A stretch of 36,356 nt of DNA from Acidobacteriota bacterium. Lineage in GTDB: Bacteria > Acidobacteriota > Terriglobia > Terriglobales > Acidobacteriaceae. Each line of letters begins with the position of its first letter. Position 1 is the first letter of the stretch. This document shows positions 8,381-26,151 of this stretch, piece by piece. The notes beneath the pieces are model-generated. The model ran no database searches. It was given only the letters and a program-made list of their open reading frames with translations, and was not told where the DNA came from. The stretch spans positions 1 to 36,356 of the forward strand of contig JAFAUE010000092.1 of the NCBI GenBank assembly GCA_019243475.1. The letters run 5' to 3'. A program made the position numbers and the translations under genes.

Positions 8381-11300
8381 TCATTGCCCGCCAGCCCGTA
8401 GAGTATTCGTCTCTCTTGGTCGCCCGGGTGGGTCATTCGTCACGGTGTAGAGCTGCCCATTGCGCAGATACATTCGCTGCATTTCTTCCAACGTAAACGG
8501 ACGCGCGCCGCGTCGTCCGAAGACTGTTAGTTGATTGCCGCTCTCATCGACGGCGCGATCGCGATCCACTCCTTTTGACACGGCTAGCGCCGGACCCTTG
8601 GTCTTGTATTTCGCAATCAGTTTCGGCGTAGGCGGCGGACTGAAGCCGTAGAACTTGTCGTTGTCGGCGGGTGAGAAGAGTTGCACAATTTTGAAACCTG
8701 CCTCGCCATCCGCCACGAAGGCAAACTGGCTGGAGCTGACCATGCCGATCTTCAAGTCGCGTGTGTCTTTCAATGCGCCGTTCGCATTGAACATCCGCGC
8801 CAGCCTCGGTTCTTCAGGCCGTTCGACGTCGACTATTGCGATCCCGTCCTTGCCGTCTGATACGTACGCATAGGTGCGGGCAACGTAAACGTTGCGTGCA
8901 TCTGAGAGTGGGACTCTTGCCGATTCAACCAGCTTCGGTTCGTCCAGCCGCGTTACGTCGAGGACCTTCAATCCGTCGTGATCCGTAACAAACGCATAGC
9001 GGAACTGCACGGCGATGCCAGTCGGACCATTCAGTAGGGGTTTGCCGATTTCCGCAGTAATCTTCGGATGCAATGGATCATCGAGGTTGACGACCTCAAG
9101 GCCGCGATCACACAGAATATATGCATAAACTCCAGCAATCGTGATTCGCCGAGCACCGTTCAGCTTGCCTTCAGGATTAAACGTGAGCGCGCGATGGATG
9201 AAGTTGTTGGCCGGATTGCCGTCGAGCAGCGTCCCGACACCGGGAAAATCTTTTTTCTCCTTCAGCCCGTTGCCGATGACGATGAGTCCCTCATATTGGT
9301 CCGTCCCATAAAGGAACCCGTACAGCAGGTGGATTTTCTGCTCCTCATTTTCGGGATCTTGCGTGCGTAAAGGATCTACGCCCAGTGTGGTTGGGCTGGC
9401 GATGGCCGTCGCATACTTGCTCTTCACGTAAAACTTCTGCCCAAACGGAGAGACCGGAGCAGTGACGATCTTCTCGGAAAAGTCTTTGTTGTCAATTTGG
9501 GCGACATCGTAAATGCGATAACCGCCTTTGCCGAGAGCGGCGTACAAGTACTCGCCGCGAAGCTGCACGTCGAGAACTTCTTCTCCTCCCAACTTCGCGC
9601 GCACCGGATGCTCATCGATATCGTCCAATACGCGCTTGTGTTTCACGAACTCTTCATAGTCGCGAGGATAGGAGACTTTTTGGAAATCGCTGCCGTAGAT
9701 TGCCGGGGGCTCATCGTGCTCCGCTACGGCGACTGCGTTAAATCCATCGCCGCCGGTCGCTACATAGATGTAGCGGCCCATGAAGTTCAGGAAGTTGGTT
9801 CCTTGAACAAGCACCTGCGCCATCCAGGCGTTGTTGTCTTTCTGCTGCGAGATGTGGCAGTCGGTGCACTGCTTTGTCTCTTTCGCGCGGACCGTGTGGG
9901 GCACATATGGACTGAATGCTTGTCCGCTGAAGCCAGAGGCAGAGACGGTCTGCTGTTGGTAATAGAGCCAATCCCGCTGAGCGTTTTGCGAGCTTACGAC
10001 CACTGCACATGCTGAACGCACTGGGGAAACGCGATTTCCAGTAACCGTGCCGTCGATTCCCAGCATGTACACGTCATCGCGCAGGACCATAAAGTCATAA
10101 TTCGTGTAATTGCGCGTCAGCAGGCCCTCGTTGTGCAGCATGGGCATGCGCTGATTGGCAGTCATCCCGAGATGGCAGCCAAAACAACTTGTTGTCCATG
10201 ACGTGTGGCAGCTTTGGCAACTCATGCGCGTGGATGAGTGCGCCAGCTTGGTGAGATCGTTCTGGTCCATCACCACGCCCCAGGTGACGCCGTCCTTCTG
10301 AATGGTTTTTGCCAGTCGCGATTTCTCGCTATAGTGCGGGTTGCCGGGAGTGATGCTGTCGATGACCTGCACGACCTCCCATTCGATCTTCGGATCCATG
10401 ATGGACCGCTGATAGAGACGATCCCCACGCCAATAAAACTGCTTCTCTCTGAATGGCGTGTTCTTGAGTGCCAGGTTAATGCCGTGTTCAGGCGCAGCGG
10501 GACCATCAGCGATGAGCGAAGCTCGCGCCGTTACGTCGCCGTGGCAGGATTCGCAGCGTACGACGATGGCATTGCGACTTTCGCCATAAAGGTTGCCGTT
10601 GCCGTGTGCATCCTGCTCGAAATGACAGTCGGCGCATTGCATCCCTTTTTCCAGATGGATGTCGGCAAGATGTACGGCCTTCTTGAACTTGTCAGCGTCC
10701 TTCCATTCGATGATGTGGTCATCTGCGTCGAGCAGATTTCCCTCGCGGTCGTGCTTGTAGACAGCCCGGAAAATCCAGCCGTGGCTATGGAAGTCGGCAA
10801 ACTGAGTTTTGTCGAGCTGCTTGTTGAACTCAGGCGTCCCAACCTGGCTGAGGAAACTCACATCCCGCCATTTGCCGCGATCGGTGGCGCCCTCAGGATC
10901 GCGGACCTGCGCTACGTACGCTTCCTTAGCAGATGGATCGTGCTGCCTCGGCGGATACATCTTGTCGCCGTTGATCTCGTTGTCCCACCATGTGTAGCCG
11001 TAATAGGTGGTGACCATGTTCGTGCCGGGGTGCATGTGGCAGACCATGCATTGGCTCGAGGGTATGGCGAGCGTGAACACGTGCTGAAGAGGATGGCCGG
11101 GTTCATTTTTGGGAATCGTCGGGTCTGCCTGTTGTGAGAACCCCTGATTGCCATAAACCGCGTACTTGCCTGAGTGGGCCGGGTCACGGTCGTTGGCGTA
11201 AATAACGTGGCAGCCGCTGCAGCCGCTCTGACGATAGTCGCCCGGCTCGTCATTTGTACCCGGAAATGAGAGCAGAGGATCGAAGAGGCGCGTCTTCTGC

Positions 11301-12244
11301 AGCCCAAGAAACACGGGATCGGTACGCAGCTCCGTGCCAAAGCCTCGGGTGGAGAGCTTGACGTCGGGATGTCCGGGATCTTCTTCCGAAATGGGATTGC
11401 CGATTTCGCCTTTCTCCTGACCTCCGCGCTCGAAGACGCGGAGCACGTTGCCAGGCTCGGAGATCTCCCAGCGCTCGAGCGGATCAAGGAAGGGAAGTAT
11501 GCCTTTCTTCTTTGTCTCTTCTGCTGTCGGGGGAGGCCACGTGATCAGCCGCTGCGGCTGGCCGTCGCGCGAGTAACTCTCGCCGAAGCGGGCATTCTTC
11601 ATGGGATAGCCGCCATTGTTGTAGAGAGCGGCCTCCCACAGCATGGCGCCGTGGGTCATCATGCTGGTGCGCACCTGATGAACTTCCTCGGAGTGACAGC
11701 CGGCGCGCCCGCACGTCTCCGATGAGATGCGGTTGTCACCTGGATTCACGAACTTGATCCATTCGGCGCTTTCTTTGAGCCAGCGCGCCCCGAAGTTTGC
11801 ACGAAGGGGATTGGCCGACGAACGCTCATCCTCGCGGTAACGAGCGCGGACGTGCGCTTTGTATTTGTTGGCGGTGTATTCTGCCGAGTCCTTCGAGGCG
11901 GAGTTCATCACAGATGCGTCGCCGCCATGGCAGTCGGTGCAGCCGAGGCGCACTGTCCCGGGCTCGTGCATAGTCTGGCTGTCAACCGTCGTATGACAGC
12001 TCATGCATCCGCGCGTCTTGGCATCTGCCTCTTCCTGCGTCTGGCGGATTAGCAGCTGAGAGCCGCGGCGCTCCGTGCGCTCCGAGATTGATTCGCTCTG
12101 ATTGTTCGATTGAACCTGACCGGCTTGCTCTTGTTCGGCATTCGCGCGCACACGGAGTGGCGCGTCGAATACCAGGCCGGCCGCTAGGGCGAACGAGCCG
12201 ATTCGGAAGAGCGATCTTCTCACTCGAAGACTGGTTAAGTACAT
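8381..12244 (-). CDS. secreted decaheme c-type cytochrome with C-terminal LVIVD-type repeat region
   Basis: 1287 aa with N-terminal signal sequence; heme motifs CMSCH, CTDCH, CGRAGCH (CX4CH), CSGCH, CMVCH, CADCH, CESCH, CQSCH, CFGCH, CTDCH; C-terminal repeats such as YIYVATGGDGFNAVAV, YAYILCDRGLEVVNLDDPLHPK, YAFVTDHDGLKVLDVTRLDEPK, YAYVSDGKDGIAIVDVERPEEPR, FAFVADGEAGFKIVQLF. Confidence 0.9.
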   Translation of the reverse strand: MYLTSLRVRRSLFRIGSFALAAGLVFDAPLRVRANAEQEQAGQVQSNNQSESISERTERRGSQLLIRQTQEEADAKTRGCMSCHTTVDSQTMHEPGTVRLGCTDCHGGDASVMNSASKDSAEYTANKYKAHVRARYREDERSSANPLRANFGARWLKESAEWIKFVNPGDNRISSETCGRAGCHSEEVHQVRTSMMTHGAMLWEAALYNNGGYPMKNARFGESYSRDGQPQRLITWPPPTAEETKKKGILPFLDPLERWEISEPGNVLRVFERGGQEKGEIGNPISEEDPGHPDVKLSTRGFGTELRTDPVFLGLQKTRLFDPLLSFPGTNDEPGDYRQSGCSGCHVIYANDRDPAHSGKYAVYGNQGFSQQADPTIPKNEPGHPLQHVFTLAIPSSQCMVCHMHPGTNMVTTYYGYTWWDNEINGDKMYPPRQHDPSAKEAYVAQVRDPEGATDRGKWRDVSFLSQVGTPEFNKQLDKTQFADFHSHGWIFRAVYKHDREGNLLDADDHIIEWKDADKFKKAVHLADIHLEKGMQCADCHFEQDAHGNGNLYGESRNAIVVRCESCHGDVTARASLIADGPAAPEHGINLALKNTPFREKQFYWRGDRLYQRSIMDPKIEWEVVQVIDSITPGNPHYSEKSRLAKTIQKDGVTWGVVMDQNDLTKLAHSSTRMSCQSCHTSWTTSCFGCHLGMTANQRMPMLHNEGLLTRNYTNYDFMVLRDDVYMLGIDGTVTGNRVSPVRSACAVVVSSQNAQRDWLYYQQQTVSASGFSGQAFSPYVPHTVRAKETKQCTDCHISQQKDNNAWMAQVLVQGTNFLNFMGRYIYVATGGDGFNAVAVAEHDEPPAIYGSDFQKVSYPRDYEEFVKHKRVLDDIDEHPVRAKLGGEEVLDVQLRGEYLYAALGKGGYRIYDVAQIDNKDFSEKIVTAPVSPFGQKFYVKSKYATAIASPTTLGVDPLRTQDPENEEQKIHLLYGFLYGTDQYEGLIVIGNGLKEKKDFPGVGTLLDGNPANNFIHRALTFNPEGKLNGARRITIAGVYAYILCDRGLEVVNLDDPLHPKITAEIGKPLLNGPTGIAVQFRYAFVTDHDGLKVLDVTRLDEPKLVESARVPLSDARNVYVARTYAYVSDGKDGIAIVDVERPEEPRLARMFNANGALKDTRDLKIGMVSSSQFAFVADGEAGFKIVQLFSPADNDKFYGFSPPPTPKLIAKYKTKGPALAVSKGVDRDRAVDESGNQLTVFGRRGARPFTLEEMQRMYLRNGQLYTVTNDPPGRPRETNTLRAGGQ

Positions 12245-12314
12245 TTTTCGCAGAATATCCGCTCACCGATTCGCTAATGCGAATGGGTGATGACGAGTCA
12301 GCTGACTGCATGTC

Positions 12315-14606
12315 TCAAAATACAAACTTCACCAGCGCGAACGAACTCACCAGCGTCTTGCCTGTGTACACGTCGCGAAGCCCTCGCGCCGGAGTGAGGC
12401 CCGTGATGCCGCCTTCGAGCACGATGTTCTCCGACAATGGCGGACGATAAATGAACCCGGTTCCGTAATCGCCGCCTATGCCCTTATGAATGTGATTCTG
12501 AAAAAGCACGAGTTCAAGTGGTTCGGTGTGCACGAACTGCAGGTAATTAAAGTTGACTACCCAGCGCATCTTCGGCGTGATGTCGAAGTCTGCGCCGACG
12601 TTATACACGTAGGCCCCGGGATTCACATAGTTCGCCTGACCTTCATTCTTGCTGGCACGCAAGTCCGGGAAGAGCGCATTGTCCGACTTGAGTCCAATCA
12701 GCGTGCTGGTCAGGCGGATGCCCTCGCGGTTCCAGAAGCTGAAGTCACCACCGGCAAAGCTTTGCGATTCGTCGATCGAATCGAAGCCACGGGCAATTCC
12801 GTCACGCGGATGCTTGTCGCCTGACGCATAAAAGAACGAAGTGCGCAGGCGCAGCCAGTCTTTGTCCAGCGAGAGCTCCAGCGCAGCCAGTTGCGCGTTG
12901 ATGTCCACGCGATCGCATTTTCCGAAACCTGCTGGACAGGGTGTGACATTGCGCCGGGAGGCGACCTGATTGTCCGTGTCGTAACCGAGTACCTGATAGA
13001 AGGCGTGCGAGACGTTGATGCGCTTGATGTGTCCGTTGCTCGCCCAGCCGACGTAGTGCGATCGGATGCCATGCGGCGCGACCACGCCGATCGGTTCAGG
13101 TCGCGTGATCACTCCGTTGTTGTTGTAGTAGATCGTCGGGTCGTCTTTGTCGAAGTGATAGCTGAACTCAGTGGTATAGCCCTTGAAAAAAAAGTCCTGA
13201 ATAAAGAAGTTGGCGATTGCCACCTGCTGATGGCGGTCATTGAAGGTATTCAGACCGCTGTTGGTGTCTTTCTCCAGATGGTAGAAGTAGGCAAGGTTGT
13301 ACTCATAGCGATCCGAACGCAGGTTGCCGAAGATGCGCAACCCGGGCTGCTCTTCTGAATAGATGAAGCCGCGGAAATCGCTTTGGAACTGCTGAATGCC
13401 GGCACGAACGGAAATGAAATCGTAGTTGGGGCTGAGGTCGTGAATCTTATATTCGACAAATGCCTGCTGCAGTCCCACGTGATCGTCAAAGCGATTCGTC
13501 CCGCGCTGGGGATTGATGTTGACGATGCCGCGCTCCTGCGTCGCCAGATAGTTCACATCAAACGCAGGGGTGAATACGACTCGCCAGTCTTTCGGACGGA
13601 AGCCGGCGTCGCCATGATAAAGCTCGCCGGTAAACCGAAAGAGCTGACTTAAAAACAACTGCCCGCCTTTGCCAAAAAACGTGAACTCCCCAGGATTCCG
13701 CGCCGCTACCAGGCTTGGGGTAGGCAAGCGCCGGCCGTCGAGGGCAGTGACCGCACTACCGGTGAAAGAGAAAAAGGTTTGTTTTCCGAAAATCGGATAG
13801 TCGCCCTTCAACTTGTTGCGGTTGAACGGGTCCCACCAGTGGCCGCTGGTGTAGTCGTACTCTCCTCCGACGTTATAGCGTCGGTAAGAATTCAGCGGAT
13901 CGTGCGGATCGCCTCCGGTCACGTCCCACCGGTAGGTTCTTTTCTCGAAGTTCTCGTTCTCCGTAGGAGGAGTAGCGGGAGTGGTCACGGTCTGCTCCGG
14001 CATCGCCGTTTCATTAGGGCGCCGGCGCAGTTCGCGATACGGCTGCTCATCAGCTTCCGTAGCAGCCGGTGGAATCGCTCCGGCTAGAGGCCGGTCGAGC
14101 GGACCAGTGGCTGCAGCTTTATTCTCCGTTGCGCGCAGCTTAATCTCGATGCTCAAGACCTCGCTTGAGCCAAGCTGAATGCTTTCGCGAGTGAAGTCGG
14201 CGAATCCCTCGCGCCGCAAATCCAGACTGTAGGCGCCTGAATTCAGATCGCTGATGCGAAAAACTCCATCACCGTTTGTCGTCGCGTCGTGAGACTTGCC
14301 TTCGGCGTCTCGCAGCACAACGCGGGTGCCCGCTAAACCGCGGCCGTCTTCATTGGTGACCAGTCCTTCGATGGAGCTGGTGGTAATCACCCGCTGATGA
14401 GGCAGACGACGTTGCGGACCGGGCGTGATGGTCTCATTCGTTTGCGGTTTATTCTGATTTTGCGCGTTTGGCAATTGCGGCGACACCATTCCGTTCGTAC
14501 TCTCGTCGTTGGAAGAGACGGATTGGGCTCGCGAAGGCATCGCGCCGATCGTCAGGCATAACCCGACCGCGGCGGCACCGCGCAAAACTTTCCAGCCAAT
14601 CGCCAA
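12315..14606 (-). CDS. outer-membrane beta-barrel protein with N-terminal carboxypeptidase-regulatory-like domain
   Basis: Signal peptide (VLRGAAAVGLCLTIGAMPSRAQ); SIEGLVTNEDGRGLAGTRVVLRDAEGKSHDATTNGDGVFRISDLNSGAYSLDLRREGF; many amphipathic aromatic strands; terminates in SSFALVKFVF (C-terminal Phe). TTG start at 14606 with upstream GAGGG. Confidence 0.8.
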   Translation of the reverse strand: MAIGWKVLRGAAAVGLCLTIGAMPSRAQSVSSNDESTNGMVSPQLPNAQNQNKPQTNETITPGPQRRLPHQRVITTSSIEGLVTNEDGRGLAGTRVVLRDAEGKSHDATTNGDGVFRISDLNSGAYSLDLRREGFADFTRESIQLGSSEVLSIEIKLRATENKAAATGPLDRPLAGAIPPAATEADEQPYRELRRRPNETAMPEQTVTTPATPPTENENFEKRTYRWDVTGGDPHDPLNSYRRYNVGGEYDYTSGHWWDPFNRNKLKGDYPIFGKQTFFSFTGSAVTALDGRRLPTPSLVAARNPGEFTFFGKGGQLFLSQLFRFTGELYHGDAGFRPKDWRVVFTPAFDVNYLATQERGIVNINPQRGTNRFDDHVGLQQAFVEYKIHDLSPNYDFISVRAGIQQFQSDFRGFIYSEEQPGLRIFGNLRSDRYEYNLAYFYHLEKDTNSGLNTFNDRHQQVAIANFFIQDFFFKGYTTEFSYHFDKDDPTIYYNNNGVITRPEPIGVVAPHGIRSHYVGWASNGHIKRINVSHAFYQVLGYDTDNQVASRRNVTPCPAGFGKCDRVDINAQLAALELSLDKDWLRLRTSFFYASGDKHPRDGIARGFDSIDESQSFAGGDFSFWNREGIRLTSTLIGLKSDNALFPDLRASKNEGQANYVNPGAYVYNVGADFDITPKMRWVVNFNYLQFVHTEPLELVLFQNHIHKGIGGDYGTGFIYRPPLSENIVLEGGITGLTPARGLRDVYTGKTLVSSFALVKFVF

Positions 14607-14990: not shown

Positions 14991-15470
14991 ATGTCTGAAG
15001 GGCAGCGCATGGCGGAGTTATACCGCAGCATTTACGAAGGCGATAGGCAAGGTGAAGCGTGGCACGGTCCGGCCCTGAAGCCGCTCTTGAAGAATGTAAC
15101 TGCGGACCAAGCCGCGCAACCGCCCAAAGTAGGAAGTCATTCCATCCTGCAGCTCGTTCTGCACATGGCCTACTGGGAAGAGGTGATGCTGCGGCGCTTC
15201 AACGGCGAAGACGTCATTGCGCCGCTCAATTCGCCCGACGACTGGCCTTCGAACCGCAAAGTCACAGCCGAAGAATGGCAAGCCGCGCTGCGTCGGCTCG
15301 ACTCATCGCATCACGCCATGCGGGCTGCCATTGCAAACTGCCCGGATGAGAAGCTTGATCAAATCGTGCCCGGGAAAAATCACAACTTCTACGCCGTTCT
15401 ACACGGAATCATTCATCACTGCGTCTATCACAGCGCGCAAGCCGCAATCTTGAAAAGATCGTTGGCCTAA
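14991..15470 (+). CDS. DinB family protein
   Basis: LVLHMAYWEEVMLRRFNG and HGIIHHCVYHSAQAAILKR provide the DinB-type His positions; AAGGAG upstream of ATG. Confidence 0.82.
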   Translation: MSEGQRMAELYRSIYEGDRQGEAWHGPALKPLLKNVTADQAAQPPKVGSHSILQLVLHMAYWEEVMLRRFNGEDVIAPLNSPDDWPSNRKVTAEEWQAALRRLDSSHHAMRAAIANCPDEKLDQIVPGKNHNFYAVLHGIIHHCVYHSAQAAILKRSLA

Positions 15471-15505
15471 GCAGCGGCAATATCTATAGGTTCCGCCCGT
15501 TCCTC

Positions 15506-15521
15506 TGTGACGCCGGTCACA
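15506..15521. promoter_or_regulatory. CRP/FNR-family-like operator
   Basis: TGTGACGCCGGTCACA: exact match to TGTGA-N6-TCACA; about 90 bp upstream of the tonB start. Confidence 0.55.
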
Positions 15522-15525
15522 ACCC

Positions 15526-15545
15526 CCAGTGAGATCGCTCACTGG
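15526..15545. promoter_or_regulatory. 8-bp inverted repeat, candidate operator
   Basis: CCAGTGAG-ATCG-CTCACTGG, perfect arms, immediately downstream of the CRP-like site. Confidence 0.4.
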
Positions 15546-15612
15546 CGTCTGTTCTTTCTCTTGTCACAATGCAGGTGGGTCGAACAAAGTCCCGCGACGG
15601 TGGAGGCACGTC

Positions 15613-16476
15613 ATGAGCAACACAGCATTTGCGGAGGCTGAGGAGCAATTTGTGATAACGGAAGCCGCGCCTGAGGCCGTTGCGGAAGAACGCCCAGAGC
15701 GAATTGCGGCGATGAACTTGCACATGTTCGTTGATTGCCTAGTCGAGCCGGATACCTCCGATCGTAAGCGAAAGCGCTGGACTACCTTTACCTCGCTCAC
15801 GGTGCAATGTCTCATGCTCGGGGTGGCCATCCTCATTCCACTGATGTTCACCGAGGTGTTGCCTACTCAACAGCTCGTCACCTTCCTTGTTGCGCCGCCG
15901 CCGCCTCCGCCACCACCTCCGCCTGCAGTCGTGGCCTCTGCTCCAATAAGGCACATACTTACCGAAGTCGTCAGTGGACGGCTGACTGCACCGACAAAGA
16001 TTCCCGATAAGATCAAGATGATCAAAGAAGACGAAGCTCCGCCTGCAATTGGTTTCGGCGTGGTTGGAGGCGTGGTGGGCGGAACGTCAGGCGGACAACT
16101 GGGCGGCGTGATAGGTGGAATCATTGCCTCCACCAATTCTCATCCAACGGTGCTTGCGTCTGGGCCTGCGCCGGCGAAGCGACTGCGAATATCACAAGGG
16201 GTGGCTCAAGGCCGGTTGATCAATCGGGTCGTGCCGGAATATCCCACGATCGCCAAGCTCGGCCGCATCCAGGGCACAGTCCAACTCAGCGCGTGGATTG
16301 GCAGAGATGGGAGCGTTGAGAGACTGACTGTGTTGAGCGGAAATCCACTCCTAGTAACTGCGGCCATTGATGCCGTAAAACAATGGCGATATAAACCGTT
16401 CTTGCTGAACGGCGAGCCCATTGAGGTGGAGTCCACGATCGAGGTCAACTTCTCCTTCAACGGAAACGGCAGCTAA
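15613..16476 (+). CDS. tonB: energy transducer TonB
   Basis: Single TM (TSLTVQCLMLGVAILIPLMF), PPPPPPPPPP spacer, TonB C-terminal domain (RVVPEYPTIAKLGRIQGTVQLSAWIGRDGSVERLTVLSGNPLLVTAAIDAVKQWRYKP). Internal ATG 15613 preferred over ORF start 15529. Confidence 0.88.
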   Translation: MSNTAFAEAEEQFVITEAAPEAVAEERPERIAAMNLHMFVDCLVEPDTSDRKRKRWTTFTSLTVQCLMLGVAILIPLMFTEVLPTQQLVTFLVAPPPPPPPPPPAVVASAPIRHILTEVVSGRLTAPTKIPDKIKMIKEDEAPPAIGFGVVGGVVGGTSGGQLGGVIGGIIASTNSHPTVLASGPAPAKRLRISQGVAQGRLINRVVPEYPTIAKLGRIQGTVQLSAWIGRDGSVERLTVLSGNPLLVTAAIDAVKQWRYKPFLLNGEPIEVESTIEVNFSFNGNGS

Positions 16477-21704: not shown

Positions 21705-23261
21705 CTACTGGCTGCTTCCGTGGTTTTCGTGCAGCAGCGTCGGATTGCGCGGGAACTTGAAATAGGGAAGGCGGACGTTGTCGATCTGGATCTGATCAGC
21801 ACGCTTCGCTGGATCAGGGAGGAAATTGGCCGCCGCCTGTGCGGTGTCGAAGTCGTCCTGATCGACGCCATCGCCGCTCACTCCAAAGCCGCCCACCATC
21901 ACGCCGTTCTTGTACAAAGGCGTGCTTCCGGGAAAGAAAACAATTCCGTTCTGGAACTGACTGGGAGGCTGATGTCCGTTGGTGCAAGGATGGGCCGTGT
22001 CGTAAAGGTACAGATTGAAGAACGGACCGGGCGGATTTGCGTCGATTCCCGGCGGAAAGAACGGCTGGGAGCCGAAGCTGATGGTGCGGTTGGAGACAGC
22101 CGTTCCGGGAGGCACGCCTGGCATGTCCTGTGCGTCCACCGACGCGCTGGAGAAATAGATTACGTTGCGGGCTTTTGCAACCGCCACGTCGGCCGAGAAG
22201 ATCGTCGCGTCGGGCATGCGATAGAAAGCCAGCAGGTCTCCATTCAGGTCCGAAACCGCGAAGGCGAAACGTGCGGGCGAACCGCTGGGCAAGCGAATCA
22301 CTGCGCGTTCAGTGTTGGCGACGCTGATCGCGGTATTCACAATTGAGTTCACGTCATCCAGCGTCAAGCCGCCAGTGCCGGCTCTTCGTGTAATGAGGTC
22401 ACCGTCAGGAGCGGGCCCTGGACTGGGTAGCGGACCAACAACGAATGCACCGTTGGCTGTCCCGGTGGTGATCCCAGCAGGCGCAACCTGGTTTTGCACG
22501 AAGGGCAAAGCGATACCGCCGATGATCACAACTCCCGGTGGCGCCGGATTGGGAACGAGACCGGTCCCGGCGATGCCATTAAAGGCGGCATATTCGTTCA
22601 CATCGTTGGTCGAACCGGCCACTCCCACTCCACCAGCTAGATGGCCGTTCTTGAATATTGGTACTCCGCCTCCGTTCGCTGCGTTGGGATCTGAATCAAA
22701 GACATCGGCCTTGCCGGTGACGATCCCAGTTCCGGTTGTGCTTCCGTCGATGGAGCGCGACTGTGGCAATGCCTGGCCAGGCAGGTAATTGCTGGTGAGA
22801 AAGCAGCCGCGGTTGGTGTTCTCAATGCCGTAGAGGTCCGCGTTAGGAACGTTGGTGATTCCAGGAGGGAAGTGAACCCCGCTGATGTACCGAACCGTAC
22901 GCGAGGAGAGCGGCGCCTGATCATTCGAAAAGAACGAAGCGGTGCGAGCCAACCCAACCGCGAGCTCCTCCGTGTTTACGGCCTGGCTAAAGTTGCCGAT
23001 CGAAGTGGCCGGTGTCCCCGGTTTCACATAAACGGCGAGAATATTTCCCTGACGGTTCGTTACTGCCACAGCAACGGGAACGTTCACCGATGCAGCGGCA
23101 GCCTGAGCCACAGCTTGCACATCGGCCGTCGTGAGTTGATTCACATTCGTCTGCAGACCTGGCGGAGGTGCGCCCGGCGGATTTGGTGTTGTGCCCCCGC
23201 AGGCGAGGAAATACAACAGAAGCAGGGAAGTACCGGCCGCGGCGAGTATGCGCTGGTTCAT
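21705..23261 (-). CDS. lipoprotein with two GlcG/HbpS-like heme-binding domains
   Basis: Signal with lipobox-like LYFLAC|GG; domain 1 LTTADVQAVAQAAAASVNVPVAVAVTNRQGNILAVYVKPG; domain 2 LTLDDVNSIVNTAISVANTERAVIRLPSGSPARFAFAVSDLNGDLLAFYRMP; repeated PLYKNG..VGGFGVSGDGVDQ / PIFKNGHLAGGVGVAGSTNDVNE. Confidence 0.8.
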   Translation of the reverse strand: MNQRILAAAGTSLLLLYFLACGGTTPNPPGAPPPGLQTNVNQLTTADVQAVAQAAAASVNVPVAVAVTNRQGNILAVYVKPGTPATSIGNFSQAVNTEELAVGLARTASFFSNDQAPLSSRTVRYISGVHFPPGITNVPNADLYGIENTNRGCFLTSNYLPGQALPQSRSIDGSTTGTGIVTGKADVFDSDPNAANGGGVPIFKNGHLAGGVGVAGSTNDVNEYAAFNGIAGTGLVPNPAPPGVVIIGGIALPFVQNQVAPAGITTGTANGAFVVGPLPSPGPAPDGDLITRRAGTGGLTLDDVNSIVNTAISVANTERAVIRLPSGSPARFAFAVSDLNGDLLAFYRMPDATIFSADVAVAKARNVIYFSSASVDAQDMPGVPPGTAVSNRTISFGSQPFFPPGIDANPPGPFFNLYLYDTAHPCTNGHQPPSQFQNGIVFFPGSTPLYKNGVMVGGFGVSGDGVDQDDFDTAQAAANFLPDPAKRADQIQIDNVRLPYFKFPRNPTLLHENHGSSQ

Positions 23262-23373
23262 GTCTGCGCTGGGGGTTCGGAAAGTGTAGCCAGTGTATTG
23301 GCAATCGACAAGAGGCGGGATTGCGATCGGATTTTTATGGTCCTGTGATTCTCATCATTTACCATCGCTGACC

Positions 23374-26151
23374 ATGAACAAACGTCTGCTTCGGATCGCA
23401 CTCATGCTGTGTACGCTGTTCATCGGATTTCGGATGGTTCGCGCATACCAGGAGCGCAGCGGACGTGTCTCGCTGCCCAGCAGCAAACTGCTGCTGCAGT
23501 CCGTTCCTGGCAATCCGCAGCGCACGAACAGTTTTCCCGCCGCGATGGCCCTCTCGCCGGACGGCAAGTTTGCCGCGTTGCTCAACGACGGCTACGGCAC
23601 GTTCGAGTCGCAGTACGAACAGTCAATCGCGATCCTGGATCTTGCCAGCAATACACTCAGCGACTTTCCGGACACTCGATTCCAGCGCAGAGCCAGGCAG
23701 ACATATTTCTACGGGTTGACGTTCAACGGAGACGGCTCCAAGCTCTTTGCGAGCGTTGGATCGATCACGGACCCAACAGGCACAGAGTCCGGCGACACGG
23801 GTGACGGCATCGCCGTTTATGACTTCGAGAACGGCAAGGTCCGACCAGCTGACTTTATCGCCTTTCCGCCTTCCACCCGACCGGCGCAACCTAAGCGTCC
23901 TCCGGAAGACCCTTCTATGGAGCCTGAACCAGTTCAGAAGACAACCGTACGCTTTCCCGCGGGACTTAGCCTTTTCAAGCGCGAGGGGCGGGAGATGTTG
24001 CTGGTCGCCGACAATCTGTCCGATGTTGCGGAGATCGTCGATCCTAGTTCCAAAAAGGTTACTCAGACGATCGATCTGGCTGTTTATCCGGTCGTGCCCG
24101 GCTCTTATCCGCTCGCTACCTGCGTGACCAAAGACGGAAACACAGGATATGTGAGTCTGTGGAACGCATCGCGCGTTGCCGAAATGGATCTCGCGGCCGG
24201 CAAACTGCGCCGCATGATCGAACTTCACACGCCAAAATCGAATGTCGCACCCGGCTCGCATCCGACCGCCTTATTGCTGAGTCCGGATGAAAGTAAGCTC
24301 TACGTCGCGCTTGCGAACACGGATGAGGTAGCGGTAATTCCGCGTCCAAGCGGCGAACCGTTCTACCTGAGCACCAAGCTGCCTGGACAACAGTATGGCG
24401 GAAGCTTCCCCATTGCACTTGCCCAGACTGCCGATGGCCGACATTTGTTTGTTGCCAACGCCAGCTCTGATGCTATTGCGGTCTTCAATCGCATCGCCCC
24501 GAACGTAACTGCTCAGGGATTTGTCCCCACGGAGTGGTATCCAACCGCTGTCGGCGTCAGCAACGGGGAACTCCTTATCGCAACCGGAAAGGGAAGGGGA
24601 ACCGGACCCAATCCGGGATTCAAGGGCAGTTCCACCGCTCCCGGACAGAACTATTACATCGCTTCACTGGTGTATGGCTCCATCGCGCGGATTGCCCTCG
24701 AAGATATCGACGGGAATCTGACCGCCTGGACGGAGCAAGTGATGGCGAGCAATCTCATGCGCGGCAATTCCGATCGGATTTCGTTTTCCTCGGGAAAGAA
24801 CGAAATCAAACATGTGATCTACGTAATCAAGGAAAATCGAACCTACGACCAAATCCTTGGGGACCTTGGCGTCGGTAACGGCGATCCTTCCATCACCATG
24901 TACGGCGAACAGATCACCCCTAATGAACACAAGCTGGCCCGGCAGTTCGGCGTGCTCGACAATTTCTATGATAGCGGCGAGGTTTCCGGCGACGGACATC
25001 AATGGTCAAATGCCGCTATCAGCAGTGACTACAACGAACAGACGTGGGAGATCGCCTATCGCGGCAAGGAGCGCTCGTACGATTTTGGCGGGATCGTTGA
25101 CGATCGTTATCCGGTGCGGGAGCATATTCCCGACGCGGATGATCCCGGAACGGGATTCCTATGGGGCGATCTGCAGAAGAATGGACTCACTTATCGCGAC
25201 TACGGGGAGTTCATCTCCACGGAATTTTGTGATCAAAATATTACGAATGAAATGCCGCAAATGGGAACGCCGCTCATGGCCGGTCCGAAATGTGGTCGTA
25301 ATGCAGTGGCTCAAGGCGAGCCCCTGCCCGATTACCTTGGCCAGCCCCACGGCGCGAAGAGTCCATGGCCGTGGCGGATCCCGCTCATAGGCAGGAGTGT
25401 AGCCACGAAGCCCGAACTGGAAGGGCACTTCGATCCTCGTTACCCCACTTTCAATTTGACCTTCCCCGATCAACTTCGCGCCGACGAGTTCCTCAACGAG
25501 TTCTCCCAATTTGTGGCCAGGTCTAAAGCTGGAGCGGCCGCTCTGCCGCAGTTCATCCTGCTTTATCTGCCGGACGACCATACTTCGGGAACGAAGCCGG
25601 GAGTCGCCACTCCATCGGCGGCGGTCGCCGACAACGATCTTGCTTTAGGCCGCGTGGTTGATGCAGTCTCGCATAGCCCATTTTGGAACAACACGGCCAT
25701 CTTCGTCCTCGAAGACGATGCGCAGAACGGCGCAGATCACGTAGACGCTCATCGCAGCACGGCTTTGGTAATCAGCCGATTCTCACCGCGGCAGCCGGAG
25801 GGCAAGCCGTTTGTCGATCACACCTTCTACACAACAGTAAACACCGTGCGGACGATGGAAGCTTTACTCGGCCTACCCCCGATGAACAATAACGACGCGC
25901 ATGCTGCAGTAATGGCTCCGTTATTTTCCGGCGCAGGCACTCAAGCCGCTTTTGCCGCCGACACTCGGAACCGTGACAACGGTCTGATCTATAAGATCAA
26001 TCCACCTAAAGGGCCCGATGCGAAGCAGTCTTCCCGGCTCGACTTCAGTCATCCAGATGCTGCCGACGCCGGCATTCTGAATGCAATTTTGTGGCGCGAG
26101 CGATTTGGGAACAGACCATTGCCGAAAGCTCCTGGAGCAGAGTTTCGCTGA
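23374..26151 (+). CDS. YncE-like beta-propeller fused to phosphoesterase (alkaline phosphatase/phospholipase C superfamily)
   Basis: Propeller repeats (MALSPDGKFAALLNDGYGTF, ALLLSPDESKLYVALANTDEVAVIPRP, ALAQTADGRHLFVANASSDAIAVFNR) then KHVIYVIKENRTYDQILGDLG..HKLARQFGVLDNFYDSGEVSGDGHQWSNAA..FVLEDDAQNGADHVDAHRS. ATG 23374 preferred. Confidence 0.88.
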   Translation: MNKRLLRIALMLCTLFIGFRMVRAYQERSGRVSLPSSKLLLQSVPGNPQRTNSFPAAMALSPDGKFAALLNDGYGTFESQYEQSIAILDLASNTLSDFPDTRFQRRARQTYFYGLTFNGDGSKLFASVGSITDPTGTESGDTGDGIAVYDFENGKVRPADFIAFPPSTRPAQPKRPPEDPSMEPEPVQKTTVRFPAGLSLFKREGREMLLVADNLSDVAEIVDPSSKKVTQTIDLAVYPVVPGSYPLATCVTKDGNTGYVSLWNASRVAEMDLAAGKLRRMIELHTPKSNVAPGSHPTALLLSPDESKLYVALANTDEVAVIPRPSGEPFYLSTKLPGQQYGGSFPIALAQTADGRHLFVANASSDAIAVFNRIAPNVTAQGFVPTEWYPTAVGVSNGELLIATGKGRGTGPNPGFKGSSTAPGQNYYIASLVYGSIARIALEDIDGNLTAWTEQVMASNLMRGNSDRISFSSGKNEIKHVIYVIKENRTYDQILGDLGVGNGDPSITMYGEQITPNEHKLARQFGVLDNFYDSGEVSGDGHQWSNAAISSDYNEQTWEIAYRGKERSYDFGGIVDDRYPVREHIPDADDPGTGFLWGDLQKNGLTYRDYGEFISTEFCDQNITNEMPQMGTPLMAGPKCGRNAVAQGEPLPDYLGQPHGAKSPWPWRIPLIGRSVATKPELEGHFDPRYPTFNLTFPDQLRADEFLNEFSQFVARSKAGAAALPQFILLYLPDDHTSGTKPGVATPSAAVADNDLALGRVVDAVSHSPFWNNTAIFVLEDDAQNGADHVDAHRSTALVISRFSPRQPEGKPFVDHTFYTTVNTVRTMEALLGLPPMNNNDAHAAVMAPLFSGAGTQAAFAADTRNRDNGLIYKINPPKGPDAKQSSRLDFSHPDAADAGILNAILWRERFGNRPLPKAPGAEFR

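Follow-up and report, generated by a model that had tools for sequence, protein, structure and literature searches.

A conserved beta-barrel and decaheme cytochrome gene pair in Acidobacteriota and other bacteria: possible outer-membrane end of an NAD(P)H-fed electron pathway

Contig JAFAUE010000092.1 of an Acidobacteriota bacterium (Terriglobales; GenBank assembly GCA_019243475.1), analyzed here over positions 1 to 36,356 and referred to as the window, encodes on its minus strand an outer-membrane beta-barrel protein (BAR) and, downstream of it across a gap of 70 bp (12245-12314), a large exported multiheme c-type cytochrome (CYT; Table 1). A preliminary description made from the sequence alone had proposed the two genes as a candidate extracellular electron conduit. 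We found both open reading frames at the coordinates and on the strand given there, and the observation on the pair is confirmed; if anything, it was understated. Genes, domains, conservation, clustering, and co-occurrence were computed here, and they place BAR and CYT in a gene set that recurs across phyla. We favor, with about even confidence, a model where BAR and CYT are the outer-membrane end of a trans-envelope electron pathway that is fed by NAD(P)H and probably regulated by cyclic nucleotides, with CYT reducing an acceptor located at the outer membrane or beyond it.

CYT homologues (E of 1e-30 or better) were present in 42 of the 396 Acidobacteriota genomes sampled, and 249 stretches were confirmed when bacterial and archaeal genomes were scanned. 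Overall, homologues shared 45 to 84% identity with CYT over about 1200 aa. Among the best 80 of the 249 stretches, identities were 46 to 83%, and the record titles named Acidobacteriota, Desulfobacterota/Deltaproteobacteria, Binatia, Nitrospirota, Planctomycetota, Verrucomicrobiota, Myxococcales, Ignavibacteriae, Caldithrix, KSB1, Zixibacteria, Marinimicrobia, Bdellovibrionales, and Alpha-, Beta-, and Gammaproteobacteria; some labels of metagenome-assembled genomes (MAGs), such as "Mycobacteriaceae" (L129), may reflect mis-binning. Named isolates with CYT included Silanimonas lenta, Parahaliea mediterranea, and Pseudohalioglobus lutimaris, and CYT was also carried on Sphingobium megaplasmids, where it was annotated as "hypothetical protein" among the records listed. 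In profile searches of all open frames, 115 of the 117 loci with enough flanking sequence to see BAR had it immediately upstream of CYT in the same orientation. One of the two exceptions was a fragment, and in the other BAR overlapped CYT and failed just the distance rule. Among close relatives, BAR and CYT occurred in an identical set of ten genomes. BAR and CYT are thus conserved neighbors well beyond Acidobacteriota. In a species of the same genus (genome G003; L055:10001-13740, also L009 and L014), CYT was split into two open frames, which is either a pseudogene or an assembly error, and the upstream BAR was intact. On one Sphingobium megaplasmid (L169:2020-9563), a ShlB-type two-partner-secretion transporter and a 1909-aa protein were encoded beside the cluster.

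CYT begins with a signal-peptide-like sequence (assigned by eye, as for BAR), and its Pfam matches were Cytochrome_C7 and LVIVD, the latter marking a C-terminal beta-propeller region that the preliminary description had overlooked. We identified nine CXXCH motifs, at aa 80, 102, 342, 399, 537, 564, 676, 687, and 793, and a tenth heme motif of the form CX4CH (CGRAGCH) at aa 178, a site occupied by CXXCH in most homologues. The term "decaheme" for CYT therefore requires the nonstandard motif to be counted, and we consider this justified because all ten C/C/H sets were invariant across an alignment of 51 CYT sequences and ten plain CXXCH motifs were found in 63 of 74 homologues. Since at least nine His residues outside the heme motifs were also invariant in this alignment, nearly all of the hemes could be bis-His ligated. 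In total, more than 100 residues outside the heme motifs were invariant. The AlphaFold2 (AF2) model of CYT had a predicted local distance difference test (pLDDT) score of 84 and a predicted template-modeling (TM) score of 0.88, and its 50 best Foldseek matches among Protein Data Bank (PDB) folds were mostly propellers and uninformative on the heme core; a search of PDB sequences found no relative of CYT. Other multiheme cytochromes were encoded next to or near CYT at some loci, including a 21-heme cytochrome (a 548-aa open reading frame) after CYT in a Myxococcales MAG (L083) and 9-heme proteins in Blastocatellia loci L059, L062, and L065.

BAR has a signal-peptide-like start, with a TTG start codon and an exact start that is uncertain, and, as noted in the preliminary description, an N-terminal CarboxypepD_reg domain and a C-terminal Phe. 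The domain is present in the window but is not general, being an accessory found in 18 of 57 BAR homologues. The AF2 model (mean pLDDT of 82) contained 18 barrel strands spanning model residues 250-735 (aa 277-762) and no plug, and invariant columns were all at aa 226 or beyond. The best PDB fold was AlgE (Foldseek E of 9.6e-15; TM score of 0.66 by target length), followed by other porin-type channels, with the OprD family among the lower ranks and MtrB outside the 50 best folds. We detected no Pfam barrel family and no Pfam or NCBIfam match to MtrB/PioB or another named conduit porin in any of the 57 BAR homologues, and no Pfam plug or TonB-receptor domain in the window BAR or the 56 others. 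Nor was there a match at cut-off to ExtI or porin-family models (NCBIfam gave none named ExtI), and PDB sequences yielded one weak, irrelevant match. Lacking a plug and having 18 rather than 22 strands, BAR is not a TonB-dependent receptor, in agreement with the first reading of the sequence. We also considered BAR-CYT gene fusions as proof of interaction, but none of seven loci with long CYT frames contained a real fusion because barrel and cytochrome lay on different open frames.

Neighbor clustering followed by profile counts on 57 loci of at least 15 kb revealed five further members of the gene set. BAR was present in all 57 loci, c0 in 49, c1a in 36, c1b in 36, c2 in 37, and c3 in 33, and BAR occurred together with all five in 26. 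c0 is an HbpS-like protein, encoded in the window about 7 kb upstream of BAR-CYT and likewise overlooked in the preliminary description. c1a combines Pyr_redox_2, two cyclic-nucleotide-binding (cNMP), and 4Fe-4S domains; its Terriglobia form is NuoG-like, has 2Fe-2S/4Fe-4S and three cNMP domains, and is encoded beside a fused NuoE-NuoF. In the genome that contains the window, the cNMP domains carry an apparently canonical phosphate-binding motif, FGEMTCMSFYPRSATV, as judged by eye. c1b has predicted membrane helices, four His residues at conserved alignment positions, and a b561 match below threshold, consistent with a putative di-heme b protein. c2 is an inner-membrane decaheme with one predicted transmembrane helix and ten invariant hemes, and in many phyla it has an FHA-like N-terminus (by eye; no Pfam match). 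c3 is a cytochrome c554-like protein with four hemes. Some loci additionally encode a CHASE2-adenylate/guanylate cyclase, a Ser/Thr kinase, or a PP2C or FHA protein (genes near the cluster at L124:19410-20924, L124:14856-16937, and L178:650-3010), and in L178, a relative, the CHASE2-cyclase adjoins BAR. These nearby genes may hint at layered signaling control.

Mean identities over the same genome pairs were 51% for CYT, 41% for BAR, 35% for c0, 29% for c1a, 25% for both c2 and c3, and 23% for c1b. This pattern shows BAR-CYT as the stable module, with an exchangeable electron input of either the Pyr_redox_2 or the NuoEFG type.

Every member of the larger set is encoded in the genome that contains the window. 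c1a is divided between two contigs: its C-terminal half is on C495 together with c1b and c2, and its N-terminal half is on C206 together with c3 and the NuoEF-like protein. Because the two c1a parts overlap in sequence, these contigs probably join. In one congener, the inner module and BAR-CYT share a contig, about 45 kb apart. Both c2 and c3 were found in 12 of 12 tested CYT-bearing genomes, this one included, and in none of three genomes without CYT. Across the 396 Acidobacteriota genomes, CYT and c2 co-occurred in 25, with about 3.4 expected, whereas 17 genomes had CYT without c2 and 7 had c2 without CYT (Fisher P of 2e-22, ancestry ignored). The c2 gene on C495 is followed by genes for a TPR protein and a ClC-type chloride channel (L173:3752-6642), and genes of similar size with matching starts follow c2 in two congeners (L174 and L179).

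Because the larger cluster and the co-occurring genes supply an electron source, the case for an electron-transfer role is much stronger than it would be from two genes alone. NAD(P)H would donate the electrons on the cytoplasmic side, through the fused NuoE/NuoF-like protein and the NuoG-like iron-sulfur protein with cyclic-nucleotide-binding domains in this genome and through the one-piece flavin/cNMP/4Fe-4S protein in most other phyla. They would then cross the inner membrane via c1b and pass in the periplasm through the membrane-anchored c2 and the tetraheme c3 to CYT, which may dock with or in the BAR barrel and reduce an acceptor located at the outer membrane or further out. From domain content, we infer the order NAD(P)H, flavin, Fe-S, b hemes, c2, c3, and CYT. 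Export is the favored direction, given the strength of NADH as a donor and the lack of an ion pump gene in the cluster. The cNMP domains, together with CHASE2 cyclases at some loci, suggest cyclic-nucleotide control, by which the cyclic-nucleotide level would switch electron flow. The most complete version of this model, an undescribed cross-phylum electron export from a cyclic-nucleotide-gated NAD(P)H dehydrogenase through a b-heme/multiheme chain to a barrel-cytochrome-propeller complex at the outer membrane, is put forward tentatively, with clearly less than even confidence.

The conduit reading of BAR-CYT is a plausible hypothesis. Like MtrCAB, OmbB-OmaB-OmcB, and ExtABCD, the pair places a plug-free barrel gene beside a large decaheme, with periplasmic multiheme partners (the tetraheme and the inner decaheme) encoded in the genome. 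The core here comprises two genes, with the other carriers encoded elsewhere. Family models bore out the earlier impression that neither protein resembles MtrA, MtrB, or OmcB, and neither matched MtrC models: CYT did not match OmcA/MtrC, BAR did not match MtrB/PioB, and none of the CYT proteins scanned had an NCBIfam match to MtrC/OmcA or OmcB, their best match being ExtM. Together with the predicted fold, these results rule out MtrB or MtrC membership. A similar arrangement is a verrucomicrobial cluster type in which an unnamed porin adjoins multiheme cytochromes, with proposed electron transfer to humics (He et al. 2017, PMC5615132). As described there, these clusters differ in having 8-heme periplasmic cytochromes, at least 20 strands, and homologues within Verrucomicrobia. 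The likeness of BAR to AlgE is one of fold only, an 18-strand single-chain barrel; identity is about 11%, BAR is nearly always paired with a cytochrome, and no alginate genes were recognized nearby.

Several observations weigh against electron export through BAR-CYT. With 18 predicted strands, BAR is narrower than the 26-strand MtrB, which encloses a whole decaheme. A lipobox-like motif was found in only 7 of 74 CYT proteins, so surface anchoring of CYT is not predicted, in contrast to porin-cytochrome conduits. In the genus of the window, the inner module is not adjacent to BAR-CYT (it is on other contigs in this genome), c2 was not found at the threshold used in 17 of the 42 CYT-bearing Acidobacteriota, and the Fisher test is blind to shared ancestry. 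Several of the named hosts are aerobes. No acceptor is indicated, as the preliminary description had also stated. Finally, CYT is the most conserved member of the set, which resembles the pattern of a specific enzyme rather than that of a generic surface cytochrome, whereas outer-surface proteins are those most often replaced in Geobacter conduits, according to passages of PMC6148476.

This reversed conservation is the main reason for retaining the closest competing explanation, which we consider doubtful but a serious contender: that CYT acts as a multiheme oxidoreductase with a specific substrate, positioned either on the periplasmic side of the outer membrane or just beyond it, with BAR passing a soluble substrate or product and the inner module feeding electrons. 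By analogy with Geobacter ext, the substrate could be a chalcogen oxyanion, for instance selenite or tellurite. Passages of PMC5877670 describe extHIJKLMNOPQS in selenite and tellurite reduction, a cluster in which multiheme cytochromes and a b-type/FeS pair likewise accompany the porin-like ExtI, and report that ExtI loss impairs reduction of both oxyanions; extHIJKL has also been examined as a putative conduit (relevant passages of PMC6148476). The top NCBIfam match of CYT was ExtM (NF040943) in eight of eight family members scanned, and ExtM 12-51, 258-305, and 372-502 were matched in order within one CYT. Since c2 and c3 had no ExtM match, this is not a general heme-motif effect. The best score, however, was 94.5 bits against a curated cut-off of 800, and a colinear top match so far below cut-off therefore points to CYT being a distant relative of ExtM rather than a member. 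The invariant residues of CYT outside its heme motifs and the single-chain channel nearest AlgE predicted for BAR are also consistent with an enzyme. In contrast to the ext system, CYT is twice as long as ExtM and ends in a propeller, BAR matches no known porin model, NAD(P)H-type flavo/cNMP proteins replace the Rieske protein, and neither the rhodanese ExtH nor ExtKL-like proteins were seen among the recurring neighbors, where no substrate transporter or resistance gene was recognized either.

A reversed flow, in which the unit would carry electrons inward from an external donor such as Fe(II), Mn(II), or reduced humics, appears improbable. Multiheme conduits of the MtoAB/PioAB type do run inward, several hosts are aerobes, and a CYT homologue occurs in a MAG (L076) of Troglogloeales, a group that includes Mn(II) oxidizers. 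The NuoEF-like and Pyr_redox_2 modules, however, indicate an NAD(P)H partner, and NAD+ reduction from such donors needs energy, whereas the cluster encodes no ion pump. That BAR is a TonB-dependent receptor or plain porin neighboring CYT by chance, as a TonB-like gene upstream (15529-16476) and the frequency of CarboxypepD_reg domains in Acidobacteriota receptors might suggest, is contradicted by the 115 of 117 loci across phyla, the BAR/CYT co-occurrence, and the plug-free 18-strand barrel, and we give it almost no weight.

Decaheme surveys have led to the proposal that Acidobacteriota reduce Fe (in passages of PMC3669403), and MtrB- and ExtB/E-type conduits are reported in Holophaga (in passages of PMC7399161). 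The relevant passages of these two papers and of PMC5877670 and PMC6148476 do not describe the BAR-CYT pair, and the searched text of Shi et al. 2014 (PMC4245776) lacks the terms "Acidobacteria," "Koribacter," "Solibacter," and "propeller." The cluster was not described in the open-access literature searched, which is weak evidence of absence given that scope.

Table 1. Positions of BAR, CYT, their predicted regions, and c0 in the window
Feature	Position	Strand	Evidence
CYT, 1287-aa exported decaheme c-type cytochrome with C-terminal beta-propeller	8381-12244	minus	Open reading frame, Pfam, heme motifs, AF2
BAR, 763-aa outer-membrane beta-barrel protein	12315-14606	minus	Open reading frame, Pfam, AF2, Foldseek
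CYT ten-heme region, aa 80-797	9854-12007	minus	Motifs, invariant ligands, ExtM matches
CYT CX4CH heme site, CGRAGCH, aa 178-184	11693-11713	minus	Motif, alignment, heme counts
CYT predicted beta-propeller region, about aa 800-1213	8606-9847 (limits approximate)	minus	LVIVD, Foldseek, model strands
LVIVD repeat match inside CYT propeller region	8801-8902	minus	Pfam PF08309, E 4.2e-13
BAR CarboxypepD_reg accessory domain, aa 78-157	14136-14375	minus	Pfam, E 1.7e-15
BAR 18-stranded barrel domain, about aa 271-763, conserved part	12318-13796	minus	AF2 strand list, invariant columns
HbpS-like protein c0	21705-23261	minus	PF03928, E 2.4e-26; cluster membership

Elsewhere in the window, DinB-like and TonB C-terminal-domain proteins are encoded upstream of BAR on the opposite strand (14991-16476, plus), and the DinB-like gene (cluster c34) lies close upstream of BAR in congeners as well. 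A 952-aa protein with a lactonase-type propeller match (23293-26151, plus) is divergent from the HbpS-like gene. An Rfam scan of the window gave no match.

Most of what is known about extracellular electron transfer comes from quinol-fed conduits and a small number of metal-respiring lineages. A barrel-cytochrome unit that is retained across ten or more phyla, among them soil Acidobacteriota and aerobes that can be cultured, together with its own NAD(P)H input and apparent control by cyclic nucleotides, would broaden the known settings and reasons for directing electrons toward the bacterial surface. Because named isolates carry BAR-CYT, the question is testable now. If the proposed pathway is true, extracellular electron transfer would operate under second-messenger control in bacteria regarded as plain aerobes.

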